IMG/VR virus record: IMGVR_UViG_3300035698_005470
Coordinates: 1-29,048 of that record
Direction: 5' to 3' (one strand)
Origin: a virus
Length of the DNA: 29,048 bases
This document shows, in pieces, positions 129 to 28,551 of the stretch. The translations under genes and the position numbers were made by a program. The notes under the pieces are model-generated. The model made no database searches. It was not told the origin of the DNA and saw only the letters and a list, made by a program, of their open reading frames with translations. Within the stretch, counting starts at the first letter, position 1. Each line of letters begins with the position of its first letter.

Positions 129-1214
129 ATGCCAAGGAAATTCACATTTGAAAAAGCAGTAAGAACAGAAGTGCCTATCTTGATAGGGCTTGCGGGACCG
201 TCCGGAGGTGGGAAAACATTGTCTGCCTTGAGACTTGCAAAAGGAATACAGAAAGTTTTTCCAGGTGAGATTATCGGTATTGATACCGAGTCAAACAGAA
301 TGAAACATTATGCAGATAGGTTTGATTTTAGACATACACCTTTCGGTCAACCTTTCGGCTCTCTTGATTATCTTGAAGTATTAGAACAGGCCGCAAAATT
401 AAAACCATCGGTTGTAATAGTGGATTCCATGAGCCACGAACATGAGGGGCTTGGCGGTCTGTTAGATCTACACGAAACTGAACTTGACAGAATGGCTGGT
501 GATGATTATGGGAAACGGTCAAGGATGGGAATGCTGGCTTGGCAGAAACCTAAGTCAAACCGCCGTAAACTTATCAACGGCCTTCTACAAATGAACAGTA
601 ATTTTATATTCTGTTTCAGGTCTAAAGAGTCAAGCCGACCCGGTAAAGATAAAAACGGCAAAAGTATAATAGAGAATTTCGGATTTGTTCCAATTGCAGG
701 TTCTGAATTTGTTTTTGAAATGACTATAAATATGTTATTACTTCCACATGCAAACGGTCACCCAACTTGGAAGTCAGACAATAAAGGCGAGACTTTAATG
801 ATGAAATTGCCTGAACAGTTTAAAAGTATATTTAATAAAGATGTACAATTGAATGAGGATATCGGAGAGAAGTTGGCACTGTGGGCAAAGGGTGATATTA
901 AGCCTAAGACTGTAAAACCTGAACCCGTAAAAACTGCAAGCCCTAAATCCAGACCCCAGGAACTAACAACCCTTGAAGATTATCTAACAGCCGGAAATAT
1001 ACCGGATAAAATAGTAGATATCAGAGGCCAGAAAGTAAACCTACTTACCAAAGCAAAAGGAGCGATTAAACATTTAAAATCCTTAGACTCTGATTTTACA
1101 AATAAAACAGCAGGCTATACTGATATTCTGACAGTGATCAAATTGATAGAAGAATCTCAGGAAGTTACAGGAGTTGTTACTGAAGATCAGGACAATGAGT
1201 TAGATATATTTTAA
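129..1214 (+). CDS. Sak4/RecA-like AAA ATPase (probable single-strand annealing or recombination protein)
   Basis: A 361-residue P-loop ATPase. Walker A is GPSGGGKT (residues 23-30) and a Walker B strand VVIVDS is at 95-100. The order and spacing resemble phage Sak4-type RecA-core ATPases, which help anneal or exchange single strands during phage recombination and replication. Residues 1 to about 240 form the ATPase core. A linker rich in lysine and proline (about 255-275) leads to an extra C-terminal region of about 85 residues ending DNELDIF, an acidic and hydrophobic tip like that of SSB. The start ATG has SD GAGGAG just upstream. The gene is followed 13 nt later by an unknown gene with its own AAGGAGG. 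The ATPase call is firm; the exact recombination role is inferred from family resemblance. Confidence 0.75.
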   Translation: MPRKFTFEKAVRTEVPILIGLAGPSGGGKTLSALRLAKGIQKVFPGEIIGIDTESNRMKHYADRFDFRHTPFGQPFGSLDYLEVLEQAAKLKPSVVIVDSMSHEHEGLGGLLDLHETELDRMAGDDYGKRSRMGMLAWQKPKSNRRKLINGLLQMNSNFIFCFRSKESSRPGKDKNGKSIIENFGFVPIAGSEFVFEMTINMLLLPHANGHPTWKSDNKGETLMMKLPEQFKSIFNKDVQLNEDIGEKLALWAKGDIKPKTVKPEPVKTASPKSRPQELTTLEDYLTAGNIPDKIVDIRGQKVNLLTKAKGAIKHLKSLDSDFTNKTAGYTDILTVIKLIEESQEVTGVVTEDQDNELDIF

Positions 1215-22565: not shown

Positions 22566-25058
22566 ATGTTACAAATATATCATGATAACGGATTTAAACT
22601 AATCCACTGCAACCCCGACAAAACACCAAAAAAAAAATGGCGTGAGCCTGAAAATCATCTATCTTTAGAAGTTGCAAGGGAATTGCAATCTACAGGTGAA
22701 ATGATTGGAGCGTGGATACCTGAGGATATTATAGTAATTGACCTTGATAATCACGAAGGTAAACCGGATGGACGGGCAACTTTCAAGGCTATAAAAGAGG
22801 AATATAATATTGATTATAATATTACTTCAGAAACTTTTTGTGTAAAAACAGCGGGTAACGGATTTCATATTTTCTTTTATGCTGGTAAAGATCACGGTTT
22901 AACACAAGGTGAAAAGGCTCCTGGAATTGATCTTAAAACTAATGCCGGATATGTGATAGCGGCAGGCAGTCCTGGTTATAGAATTTATGATTCTATTGAA
23001 GAATTGGATATAGAAACTATTCCAGATTCCATAAAAATATGGCTTGAAACTGTTAGAAAAAAGAAGCCTAAAAAATCAGAAGAAGAAAAGCCTAAAGGTC
23101 ATAATATCCCAGTTGAATTATTAGCCAAAATATTAAAAAAGTTAGATATAAAAGATTTTAATTCTAATGATAAATGGTTTGATTTTATTGTATCAGCTAT
23201 TGCAGCAACAGGAGCAACTCAGGATGTTTATGATTTACTTGTTGATTGGTCTGGTGAAGATCAGGAATACGAGGACGTAAGGGCAAGGGTAGAATCTTTT
23301 GACGGGATGGGAGGAATTACCACAGGAACCTTTGTTCATATTTTAAAAGAACAAGGGATTACTCAGTATTTTATTAAAAAGGTTTTGTCTTATAATACAT
23401 CAATAGAATTATATGAAGCTATGAGAGAGGACGGGCATAATTTACCATTTCCAGAGCCCAATTACGATTTGATAAGTGATAGTAGAGAAGCAAGAGAATT
23501 ATTTTTAACTGGGGGGAATTCAGTTGCTGCGACATTGTTAGGGTTTGCTATTCAGGAACATATAATATGGTGTGAAGCTGATAAAGAGTTTTTTCTTTTT
23601 GATGGTAATAAATGGTGTGAATATTACGATATGTTTTCAATTGCATATACTGTTTTAATTAGATTGACTAAGTTTATGTATGCTAAAAAACAGGGTAATG
23701 AAGTAGATAATGAAAACTTCATAAAACTGGTAAAAATCATAAATAAAACCCATTGGAAAAGAGAAACAGTAAATGAGCTGAGATGTAGGGACGGGATTTA
23801 TAACAAAAAAGCGACATGGGATAGTTTTAGAATTAAAGAGACTATCACAACATCAGACGGTGTAATAGATTTTACAGAAGGTAAAATTATATTAAGGAAA
23901 GGGAAAAGAGAAGAGTTTAGAAAATCATATATTAAGTACACATCAAATCAAATAATTACTGCCGATATTCCTATAAAATATAATGAATTTCTTGCAGGAC
24001 TTTTTCCAGATAAAGACACTTTATTCACAGCCAGGCAAGCGTCAAGTATGTTTATTACTGGCAACGCAAAAAAGGTTTTTCAGATATATCATGGTGGAGG
24101 TGATAACGGTAAATCTACCTGGATAGAAATAGAAGCTGAATTATTAGGGGAAGAGAAAGCCTTTCCTTATCCGACTGATTTACTTTTAAACAGTAAATAT
24201 GGGAGCGATAATCTGCCACCGGAAGCCGCTAATTTTGCAGGTAAATATTTTCTATATGGGTCAGAAGTTTTAAAAGGGAAGGAATTATCTTTAGGTAAAA
24301 TTAAGAATTTTACAGGCCAGGATACTTTTACAGCAAGGCCATTATATAAAGACCCCCGGATAATTTATCCGACTTGGCAGATGATATTATCAGTTAATGA
24401 TCTACCGTTTTTTGATGGAACAGACAGAGCGTTTATAAATAGGCTTATTGTATTACCTTTTGAAATGACATTTGTTGATTCAGAACAAGAGATGATTGAC
24501 AAGATTAAAAAGGGAGGAGATCCAGATAAAATAGCATTAAAAATAGATGGTGAACTATTAAAAAGTCAAATCAGAAAAGAATTTTCTGCTGTTATAAAAC
24601 AGAAAATTGACGATTATTTAGATATGAAAAATAACTATAACGGAATAATCAAGCAGTCAGAAGTTTGTCGCAAGCATAAAGAATCTTATATTTCAGATAA
24701 TAATAATATTGAAAACTTTATACTTGAAATGTGTAAAGTATCACCTGCAGATAACTATTTTATATCATCTGAGAATATTACAAATTCTTATCATGATTAT
24801 ATGGGAAGCAAAAAAGCTTCTGTTAGTTATGTAATAAGACAGCTTATTAAGTCCCGGGCTGAAATACAAAAAGACATAAGAGTAATTGAAGAGACTTTTC
24901 ATAATCCAGATACTAGAAATTATGAAACTAAAAAAGCACAAAAAAGGGGGCTAAGAAATATCAGGCTAAAAACAATAGCTGAGATTGAAACCGAGAATAA
25001 GAACAAATTAGAAGAAGATAATTTGAATATAGAACATGAAGATTCAATTCCATTTTAG
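22566..25058 (+). CDS. Primase-polymerase / SF3-type helicase fusion
   Basis: An 830-residue replication protein. The N-terminal AEP prim-pol domain (about 1-160) has motif I VIDLD (D59, D61), motif II GNGFHIFF (H101) and motif III GIDLK (D122). A D5_N-like middle region is at about 330-460. The helicase part has Walker A GGGDNGKST (510-518), the sensor asparagine in MILSVNDLP (N611) and arginine candidates R621 and R626 in GTDRAFINR. It would synthesise primers and unwind DNA at the phage origin, like the P4-alpha and D5 families. The C-terminus EHEDSIPF looks like an SSB tip. It is directly downstream of the RHH gene in one operon. An origin-binding site is not seen. Confidence 0.9.
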   Translation: MLQIYHDNGFKLIHCNPDKTPKKKWREPENHLSLEVARELQSTGEMIGAWIPEDIIVIDLDNHEGKPDGRATFKAIKEEYNIDYNITSETFCVKTAGNGFHIFFYAGKDHGLTQGEKAPGIDLKTNAGYVIAAGSPGYRIYDSIEELDIETIPDSIKIWLETVRKKKPKKSEEEKPKGHNIPVELLAKILKKLDIKDFNSNDKWFDFIVSAIAATGATQDVYDLLVDWSGEDQEYEDVRARVESFDGMGGITTGTFVHILKEQGITQYFIKKVLSYNTSIELYEAMREDGHNLPFPEPNYDLISDSREARELFLTGGNSVAATLLGFAIQEHIIWCEADKEFFLFDGNKWCEYYDMFSIAYTVLIRLTKFMYAKKQGNEVDNENFIKLVKIINKTHWKRETVNELRCRDGIYNKKATWDSFRIKETITTSDGVIDFTEGKIILRKGKREEFRKSYIKYTSNQIITADIPIKYNEFLAGLFPDKDTLFTARQASSMFITGNAKKVFQIYHGGGDNGKSTWIEIEAELLGEEKAFPYPTDLLLNSKYGSDNLPPEAANFAGKYFLYGSEVLKGKELSLGKIKNFTGQDTFTARPLYKDPRIIYPTWQMILSVNDLPFFDGTDRAFINRLIVLPFEMTFVDSEQEMIDKIKKGGDPDKIALKIDGELLKSQIRKEFSAVIKQKIDDYLDMKNNYNGIIKQSEVCRKHKESYISDNNNIENFILEMCKVSPADNYFISSENITNSYHDYMGSKKASVSYVIRQLIKSRAEIQKDIRVIEETFHNPDTRNYETKKAQKRGLRNIRLKTIAEIETENKNKLEEDNLNIEHEDSIPF

Positions 25059-25067
25059 GAGGTAATT

Positions 25068-25253
25068 ATGTGTAATTGCAACAGCCATAAAGTACATGTA
25101 TTTTCTGACAAGAAGATAAAAAGATATATGGAGGTCTGTGGAGAATGTGGGACTCATATAAAATGGGTAGGTAATTCAGAGTGGGAGGAGATAAAAGACA
25201 CGGCTATTATTATGTCAGAAGATGATAGAAAAATATTACAAAAAGCATTTTAG
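25068..25253 (+). CDS. Small zinc-ribbon-like protein
   Basis: A 61-residue protein with CNC near the N-terminus (C2, C4), H7 and H10, and a CGECGTH pair of ligands (C24, C27, H30). The spacing of two Cys-rich knuckles separated by about 20 residues would suit a small zinc ribbon. The rest is a polar C-terminus (DDRKILQKAF). SD GGAGG lies before the ATG, and the gene lies 9 nt after the primase. It could be a primase accessory or DNA/RNA-binding factor, but nothing shows this directly. Confidence 0.6.
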   Translation: MCNCNSHKVHVFSDKKIKRYMEVCGECGTHIKWVGNSEWEEIKDTAIIMSEDDRKILQKAF

Positions 25254-25266
25254 GAGGTAAAACAAA

Positions 25267-25752
25267 ATGAAAATTTCCCTAATCCAGATGGCAAAAATCC
25301 TAAACACCTCAGTTAATTTAGTCATAAAAATAAAATATTCGCTAGGTTATAAAAAAGGTTCATCTCTTGATTATTCCATGATACCAAATTTTAGAGCTGA
25401 AAGAATAAAACTTAGAGAGCAAAGGAAAAACATAAATAACTCATATCCAGAGTATTATAAAAAAGCTGTTAAGATAATATCCGAAAAGGGATATATTACT
25501 ACAAAAGAATTGAATGATACTTTTAAATTAGATCATGTCTTAGGTGCATTGTCATATTTTGAAACTATGAATAATCCATTATTTGACGATATAATACAGG
25601 CAACTCCAGCACATAAAAAGAAGTCGCATACTAATATTTTTAGGCCATTTAATAAGCGTCTTGAAAAATGGAAAGAAGAATCAAAAAAAAGCATAATTAA
25701 AACCAGGTTCGTAGAACGTGGAGAGATGAAGAATTTAAGGATGGCATTATGA
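25267..25752 (+). CDS. Unknown basic protein of the replication operon, possible HTH
   Basis: A 161-residue, lysine-rich protein. The N-terminus ISLIQMAKILNTSVNLVIKI could form a helix-turn-helix, and a second possible one lies about 75-100 (ISEKGYITTKELNDTFKLDH). Its C-terminus is very basic (KKSHTNIFRPFNKRLEKWKE). This suggests a DNA-binding protein, perhaps a replication initiator or transcription regulator. SD GGAGG lies upstream, and the next ATG overlaps this stop (ATGA), so it is coupled to the SSB-like gene. No family is recognised. Confidence 0.6.
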   Translation: MKISLIQMAKILNTSVNLVIKIKYSLGYKKGSSLDYSMIPNFRAERIKLREQRKNINNSYPEYYKKAVKIISEKGYITTKELNDTFKLDHVLGALSYFETMNNPLFDDIIQATPAHKKKSHTNIFRPFNKRLEKWKEESKKSIIKTRFVERGEMKNLRMAL

Positions 25753-26018
25753 GTGAAAAGATTTATGTAGGAAATGGGAAACCGATTGGACAGTATGGTG
25801 ATATTAAAATCACTGTAGATTTGGGTGGGCTTAAGGAATATTTTGAGAAGTACGGATTTACTACAGATCAGGGCAAGAAAAAACTAAGCTTTATAGTATC
25901 TGAAAGGAGAGAAGCAGATCAGTATGGAAATACTCACTCGGTTCTGGTTAATACCTGGAAACCAGATAGCTCTGTAGTAACGTCACCTCCGGCAGATGAT
26001 TCTGACATCCCCTTCTGA
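25749..26018 (+). CDS. SSB-like small protein with an SSB C-terminal tip
   Basis: An 89-residue protein with a beta-rich body (IYVGNGKPIGQYGDIKITVD, then LSFIVSERREADQYG and HSVLVNTWKPD) and a flexible end PADDSDIPF. This ending is very close to the conserved acidic tip of bacterial SSB (DDDIPF), which recruits replication and repair proteins. The body is shorter than the usual OB fold of SSB (about 110 residues) but has a similar beta alternation. It is the last gene before a terminator, in the replication operon. Its ATG overlaps the upstream stop (ATGA). It probably binds ssDNA or imitates the SSB tip; the OB fold is not proven. Confidence 0.6.
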   Translation: MSEKIYVGNGKPIGQYGDIKITVDLGGLKEYFEKYGFTTDQGKKKLSFIVSERREADQYGNTHSVLVNTWKPDSSVVTSPPADDSDIPF

Positions 26019-27721: not shown

Positions 27722-28282
27722 ATGATTATAATTAAAACGTCAGACAGTAAAGAAAATATGTGTGATAGATGTTTAAATAAGTTTATGACTTGTGAAGCTA
27801 AACATCTACAATTTGGCAATGGGATAGGGAATGATAATGTGATTGAATGCGAAGAATATAATGGAAAATTAACAGATACTATTCAAATAAATGGAAAATT
27901 AGTTTTAATGGGCGATGGTGAGTGGGCTAGATACTCAGATAATCTTGCAAAAATAAAACAGCTAACAGAGACAATATCAAACTTCACAGATCCAAACACT
28001 GAGCAATACCAGACAGGTTATAGATCAGGAGTATTATCACAGAAAACTACATGTGATCATTATAAATCAGATAAAGCAAATATATCAGAGTCTAAAGATA
28101 GAATTGATGAATTGATATGGGCGAACAAAACGCTGATCAAGAGAGATGATAAAAATATAGCAGAAATCAAAAAACTTAGAGAGGATAATGAAAACTATCG
28201 TAAAAGATTTATGGAACAACATGCCGAAGTTGTAAGGTTAGGTTCTGAACTGGAAGAACTTAAACTAAAGGTTGTTGAGTAA
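27722..28282 (+). CDS. Cys-cluster plus coiled-coil phage protein
   Basis: A 186-residue protein with start ATG 27722 (MIIIKTSDSK) chosen because AAAGGATGG precedes it and the longer frame runs into the previous gene. Residues C14, C17, C24 and C43 form a C-x2-C-x6-C-x18-C set, a likely small zinc-binding module. The C-terminal third (EIKKLREDNENYRKRFMEQH, then GSELEELKLKV) is a strong coiled coil. Many phages have Cys-cluster plus coil proteins of unknown role. Its stop shares bases with the ATG of the next gene (TAATG). Confidence 0.6.
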   Translation: MIIIKTSDSKENMCDRCLNKFMTCEAKHLQFGNGIGNDNVIECEEYNGKLTDTIQINGKLVLMGDGEWARYSDNLAKIKQLTETISNFTDPNTEQYQTGYRSGVLSQKTTCDHYKSDKANISESKDRIDELIWANKTLIKRDDKNIAEIKKLREDNENYRKRFMEQHAEVVRLGSELEELKLKVVE

Positions 28283-28551
28283 TGAACGACTGGAAAGAAT
28301 TAAAAATAGATAATTTGCCACCTGATATATTGACAGGTGATTATATGTTTGGTGTTAAAAATGATTATATTGATGAAAATTATTTATTAGGTGAGATAGT
28401 ACCGTCTATTTATCAGGACAGCATGATTATTTTAATGAGAGTTTTTAAAAAAATAGATAAATACTATTATCGTAAACCAGAATTTAAACAGCTGAGTCAT
28501 GAGGAGATTATGATAATAATGTCAAATAGGTCAAGAAAGATTGGTTCATAA
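28282..28551 (+). CDS. Short paralogue of the gene at 1228
   Basis: An 89-residue protein whose first 20 residues (MNDWKELKIDNLPPDILTGD) differ from the 131-residue product at 1228-1623 by only three residues. Both share YYYRKPE and HxEIM motifs, but this copy ends after SNRSRKIGS and lacks the KWW segment. DNA identity at the start is high (about 85 percent by eye over 60 nt), so the duplication is recent or conserved by selection. Its ATG overlaps the upstream stop. A hairpin with a GAGA loop follows. Confidence 0.65.
   Translation: MNDWKELKIDNLPPDILTGDYMFGVKNDYIDENYLLGEIVPSIYQDSMIILMRVFKKIDKYYYRKPEFKQLSHEEIMIIMSNRSRKIGS

Follow-up and report, generated by a model that had tools for sequence, protein, structure and literature searches.

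Two replication proteins encoded on one viral DNA fragment end in the same kind of short acidic peptide, the docking tip of bacterial single-stranded DNA-binding proteins (SSBs). The window analysed here is the whole of IMG/VR virus record IMGVR_UViG_3300035698_005470, a 29,048-base fragment, and the two proteins are a primase-helicase and, downstream of it, an 89-amino-acid (aa) protein from a mini-SSB-like family that had not been characterised before. Bacterial genome maintenance uses SSB tips as its docking hub, and by analogy with the systems compared below we consider it fairly probable that the helicase and the phage SSB carry interchangeable tips for shared clients, whether host or phage proteins. 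A first-pass annotation had singled out three C-termini, the third on a Sak4-like ATPase at the far left of the window, and had read all of them as mimics of the host SSB tip. In translations of the open reading frames (ORFs) the three ends are present as written, with coordinates correct to within a codon:

22566..25058, + strand: primase-helicase, 830 aa, ending ...NIEHEDSIPF; Prim-Pol / PriCT-2 / SF3 (D5-like, DUF5906) domains, Pfam PF09250 4e-11, PF08707 1e-4, PF19263 1e-8
25032..25055 (last 8 codons), + strand: SSB-type C-terminal tip of the primase-helicase, EHEDSIPF, from the ORF translation; seen also in the L001 relative
25749..26018, + strand: mini-SSB-like protein, 89 aa, ending ...ADDSDIPF
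25995..26015 (last 7 codons), + strand: SSB-type C-terminal tip of the mini-SSB-like protein, DDSDIPF; PF invariant among relatives, linker variable
129..1214, + strand: Sak4-like AAA_24 ATPase, 361 aa, ending ...EDQDNELDIF
1191..1211 (last 7 codons), + strand: C-terminus of the Sak4-like ATPase, DNELDIF; by conservation not SSB-type

The ends of the small protein and the primase carry the elements of an SSB docking motif, namely a terminal Phe, a Pro and a hydrophobic residue before it, and acidic residues upstream. The Sak4-like protein, closing with LDIF and no Pro, fails the same test, and its DNELDIF end, weak on its own, is not of SSB-tip type. Random draws from phage C-terminal composition produce an acidic PF end in 1.7e-4 of tails. 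A background set of 160 phage loci contains 2,321 distinct ORFs, of which 50 carry such a tip; most of these encode SSB-like proteins adjoining SF3 primases, or canonical SSBs, and the remainder are one SF3 primase-helicase and two unknowns. Given this random rate and the SSB-like character of most background carriers, the primase and small-protein tips stand well above chance. The two SSB-like carriers beside SF3 primases that were scanned against Pfam are both DUF669, and a DUF669 protein of phage HK620 has been shown biochemically to be an SSB (PMC5928155). An acidic PF end thus marks SSB-like proteins well, and on a primase-helicase it is unusual.

Similar ends appear at other places in the loci examined. 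In loci reached through the SF3 relatives of the window primase (L222-L299), the SF3 primase itself has no tip, and an SSB-type tip closes the SSB-like protein encoded immediately before it; this upstream neighbour is DUF669 in the two cases checked. Otherwise unexplained proteins with SSB-type tips are encoded at L103 1578-2123 (DDDIPF), L093 9569-10060 (DDEVPF) and L251 334-717 (TDNVPF).

Conservation of the small-protein tip can be judged across a widespread family. Scans with stretches of the 89-aa protein yielded the first 21 viral relatives, and a subsequent profile search found a member encoded on 414 viral contigs; no search pattern for the family included the tip. All 65 distinct proteins end in PF (57 LPF, 5 IPF, 1 MPF, 1 PPF and 1 DPF). 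The core is kept, although the invariance of its DxYGxTH motif is partly a selection effect, as the same motif served as the profile-stage search pattern. The linker before the tip varies in sequence and in length, from a few to about 60 residues, and the tip is thus retained while the residues preceding it diverge. Relatives are annotated as hypothetical in named phages of Tenacibaculum, Polaribacter, Flavobacterium and Bacteroides, and the one match among genome_contigs lies on a contig of a Flavobacteriales metagenome-assembled genome. Family genes sit in recombination/replication modules, where their neighbours elsewhere include ERF annealing proteins (phrog_155; annotated in elemoE and BF1-TP2) and exonuclease-like and primase/helicase genes (nuclease calls by eye).

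Some relatives of the small protein look circularly permuted (L020 2760-3038, L021 309-602, L108 6001-6315, L109 4794-5108 and L110 5992-6285). In these, KVYIGNGK follows the core, whereas KIYVGNGK opens the window protein, and the PF tip is still C-terminal. Phrog_24909, of unknown function, is matched by some family members but not by the window 89-aa protein, and the phrog_24909-like members appear permuted, with the N-terminal strand behind the core.

The best argument for the function of this family comes from the slot that its genes occupy. Phages with the same tip-bearing helicase, of the DnaB-like type described below, carry nearby a small-family member, or a DUF3127 protein (L207 and FL-1), or a PF00436 SSB (FCOV-F54), and the DUF3127 and PF00436 proteins in this slot all end in tips. 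Because tip-bearing proteins of these kinds share its slot beside the same helicase, the small family would do the job of an SSB. From slot sharing and gene neighbourhood we infer that the small protein binds single-stranded DNA (ssDNA), and the 89-aa protein is likeliest a miniature phage SSB. Its tip would then most simply be the ordinary tip of the phage's own SSB-like protein, for which the 'mimicry' of the first-pass annotation is the wrong word. Relatives match SSB profiles in PHROG weakly (phrog_18154, 0.003; phrog_378, 0.03). An AlphaFold 2 model of one family member (48 sequences) is all-beta, with a mean predicted local distance difference test score (pLDDT) of 70, and the family as a whole is probably all-beta; structural matches of this model in BFVD are only uncharacterised phage proteins. 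The 89-aa protein has no Pfam family match, and the canonical SSB family PF00436 is absent from the window record.

For the primase-helicase, which matches PHROG 1156 DNA primase at 1e-55, one near relative was found, in locus L001. The two proteins share ENLNxxHEDxIPF-like ends (EEDNLNIEHEDSIPF in the window and DEENLNKDHEDEIPF in L001, the latter closing with NKDHEDEIPF) despite ~20% identity over 390 residues. The window primase's own patterns found no close relatives in viral contigs, and the profile search gave distant ones only. Among 79 such distant SF3 relatives, a tip occurs once, as GADNVPF in the Pfam-scanned protein of L294. Because the tip is present in L001 but in only this one distant relative, it is a derived, lineage-specific acquisition rather than a product of chance. 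Gene order is the same in both phages, running from the primase through an ORF to the small SSB-like protein. The window has two ORFs in this interval:

25068..25253, + strand: small ORF of 61 aa with CxC / CxxC residues, between the primase and the SSB-like gene; no relative in the loci fetched
25267..25752, + strand: ORF of 161 aa, syntenic with L001 4623-4988 at 28% identity

SSB-type tips recur on other phage helicases. When every other ORF in 121 small-family loci was surveyed (1,810 ORFs in 524 clusters), acidic PF tips were found in only three clusters, the window SF3 primase, the L001 SF3 primase and the DnaB-like proteins, all of which are replicative helicases. The TOPRIM-DnaB protein of Tenacibaculum phage JQ ends in SEDDVPF. 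A family of stand-alone DnaB-like helicases, which matches phrog_5482, carries tips in 13 of 15 distinct members of a marine clade, the two exceptions ending in ELPI, and in all five members of a Riemerella clade. Cultured Riemerella and Flavobacterium phages are among its carriers, the Flavobacterium phage helicases ending in NDVPF (FCOV-F54) and DDDVPF (FL-1). At 21-29% identity the last residues of the DnaB-like helicases agree and the tails between core and tip are unalignable; the tip is again kept while its linker diverges. Other clades of the stand-alone family have weaker ends (EFNE[AV]PF, DFDF) or none.

Two further observations concern these DnaB-like proteins. TOPRIM-DnaB proteins of about 575 aa (L162, L164, L171, L174, L177 and relatives) lack a C-terminal tip and contain an internal [NT]xTPF[DEV] motif ~12 residues from the end (FNNQTPFDEVDNIRCENELE), which would fit an extended tip or an ancestral motif. 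The helicase match in OQ791282.1 (Shigella phage Henu10) has the same coordinates, 30781-31827, and the same identity as that in ON933637.1 (Riemerella phage PT15), and on account of this identical match the Shigella host label of OQ791282.1 looks doubtful.

The third C-terminus has a different standing. The Sak4-like ATPase matches PF13479 at 4e-5, just below the cutoff, and its relative L022 scores above it. HK620 Sak4 also matches PF13479, and hhalign relates the two ATPases with a probability of 86, in the P-loop region only. None of 79 relatives of the window protein has an SSB-type end. With that absence and with no Pro in LDIF, we rejected this end as part of the tip pattern; it is probably coincidental. 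Sak4 of HK620 binds SSB-coated ssDNA only if the SSB has its tip, NDYPPF (PMC5928155), and because of this precedent, the only functional one, the Sak4-like ATPase is more likely a reader of tips than a carrier, with the small protein's tip as its candidate ligand. Conservation among homologues had been set beforehand as the test of the first-pass reading. It holds for the small protein and, in one near relative, for the primase, and it removes the ATPase from the set, the HK620 counterpart being a receptor of the tip.

The ssb gene usually adjoins sak4, in up to 80% of cases, and the arrangement is not obligatory (PMC5928155). In the window the two genes are apart: about 3 kb separates the small SSB-like gene from the right end of the record, and the Sak4-like gene is at its left end. 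Early genes on the same strand at either end of the record suggest a circular map, and closing the circle would still leave other genes between the small SSB-like gene and the Sak4-like gene. Two ORFs at opposite record ends, 1228-1623 and 28282-28551, have near-identical N-termini (MN[ED]W[NK]EL[RK]IDNLPPDILTGDY), and the Sak4-like gene is closely followed, at 1624-1959 of the early strand, by a small ORF with a lipoprotein-like start (MKKLIIIITAILIMSCTVD).

The model that we favour builds on the tip sequences, their conservation and their recurrence on helicases, and reaches from these to ssDNA binding by the small protein, docking and the sharing of clients. The 89-aa protein would bind ssDNA with a small beta domain, from which a disordered linker leads to a standard SSB docking tip, and the primase-helicase would have gained the same tip in this lineage, on its own disordered acidic tail. 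Shared clients would receive the same plug (acidic residues, a hydrophobic residue, Pro and a terminal Phe) from both proteins, in the same one or more pockets, and the helicase might keep a client at the fork and then pass it to, or exchange it with, the SSB-coated strand. Likely clients would be readers of SSB tips, either host proteins of the primase/polymerase/restart/RecO class or, following HK620, the Sak4-like ATPase that the phage itself encodes. Escherichia coli DnaG and Pol III chi both bind the SSB C-terminus (PMC6783573). No separate DNA polymerase gene was recognised in the window, where family libraries were searched with a part of the ORFs, and SSB-tip readers among the host replication proteins are for this reason plausible clients. 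A phage-internal partner would fit as well as the host PriA, RecO or RecQ proposed at first pass. We extend the model more tentatively, at a little less than an even chance, to a general and undescribed way for polymerase-less phages to capture host replication and repair machinery, in which the SSB tip was gained repeatedly by replicative helicases with two or more unrelated folds (SF3 and DnaB-like), and helicase and SSB vie for the same host clients or pass them on.

Several results weigh against shared docking. No sequence match tied the small protein to a known SSB family in Pfam, PHROG or hhalign; a profile link to SSBs (PDB chains, the HK620 SSB and a canonical phage SSB) was tried and proved insignificant by hhalign. 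The structural model, of modest confidence, has no fold match in the PDB and did not identify the fold. Conservation of the window primase tip rests on the single near relative; the tip is conserved in L001 and recurrent on unrelated phage helicases but missing from 78 of the 79 distant SF3 relatives. The TOPRIM-DnaB relatives (a 23-member cluster) and the p803 primases have no tip either, and the helicase tip is thus recurrent yet dispensable, not obligatory. Its association with a nearby tip-bearing small ORF, in clusters at 60% identity, is not significant (p = 0.08), and because of this clade-level value we make no claim that helicase tip and small ORF co-evolve.

The distribution among SF3 relatives is also what would be expected if only the small-protein tip were real and the primase tip had arisen by chance or neutrally where a disordered, acidic tail happens to stop, alike in the window and L001 through descent alone. 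Acidic tails are common in phage proteins, and a single near relative shares the end. We nonetheless hold this to be unlikely, given the random expectation per tail, the agreement of the two primase ends at ~20% identity, and the return of this end, among the other proteins of the small-family loci, on DnaB-like helicases alone. Autoregulation, in which the helicase tip would fold onto its own DNA channel or onto the DNA-binding face of the phage SSB and gate loading with no third partner, draws on the weak binding of acidic SSB tails to their own DNA-binding site and on the HK620 SSB, whose tail seems to become exposed only when ssDNA is bound (PMC5928155). It leaves unexplained why Pro-Phe, and not plain acidity, is kept across helicases at 21-29% identity, and why the end matches that of SSB, and we regard it as distinctly unlikely.

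The first-pass annotation had also allowed that the phage competes for host factors, and a tip that is the same peptide as the host docking ligand could act as a decoy, titrating SSB partners off host DNA in host takeover rather than recruitment. This is improbable, since a low-copy, fork-bound replicative helicase would make a poor sponge and the phage already makes a tip-bearing SSB-like protein. Its central proposal, that the host tip is imitated by three separate phage proteins, the Sak4-like ATPase among them, has in its favour that all three ends exist; with the ATPase end missing from every relative and lacking Pro, and with Sak4 known from HK620 as a tip reader, we judge it very improbable. 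Docking on shared clients by helicase and SSB is the reading that we retain as likeliest.

On this reading, the same peptide on phage helicases near tip-bearing SSB-like proteins of several unrelated families offers a short handle on partner recruitment. A likely job is also assigned to a widespread uncharacterised protein family, and a tip ending in PF becomes a signature usable for annotating small phage SSBs. Full-text searches, with subscription literature mostly outside their reach, returned no report of SSB-type tips on phage helicases, which is weak evidence of novelty.

Known systems resemble the window in different respects. The bacterial SSB C-terminus (DDDIPF in E. coli), which docks SSB-interacting proteins, likewise places a hydrophobic residue, Pro and Phe after acidic residues, at the very end of a disordered linker that varies; in the present case primase-helicases carry the tip as well, and the small protein is not detectably PF00436. 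The stand-alone DnaB-like helicases of Bacteroidota phages (phrog_5482) have SSB-type tips and occur in phages that carry tip-bearing SSB-like proteins, but they have a RecA/DnaB-like rather than an SF3 fold and are unrelated in sequence to the window primase-helicase. HK620 encodes, in the same phage, a distant SSB with an SSB-like tip and a Sak4-type ATPase, whereas the window small protein is about half the size of the HK620 SSB and not detectably related to DUF669, and the window ATPase is only distantly like HK620 Sak4. In phage T7, both the SSB gp2.5 (EEADEDGDF) and the primase-helicase gp4 (WSNDTDF) end in an acidic tail with a terminal Phe, and the gp4 tail docks on the polymerase (PMC12593628). 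The same pairing of an SSB-like protein and a helicase with acidic, Phe-ended tails is found in the window, L001, L108 and many DnaB-like loci, taking the small protein as a putative SSB. The T7 tails end in GDF and TDF without Pro and serve the phage polymerase, whereas the window tips are of the host SSB type and its helicase is SF3.

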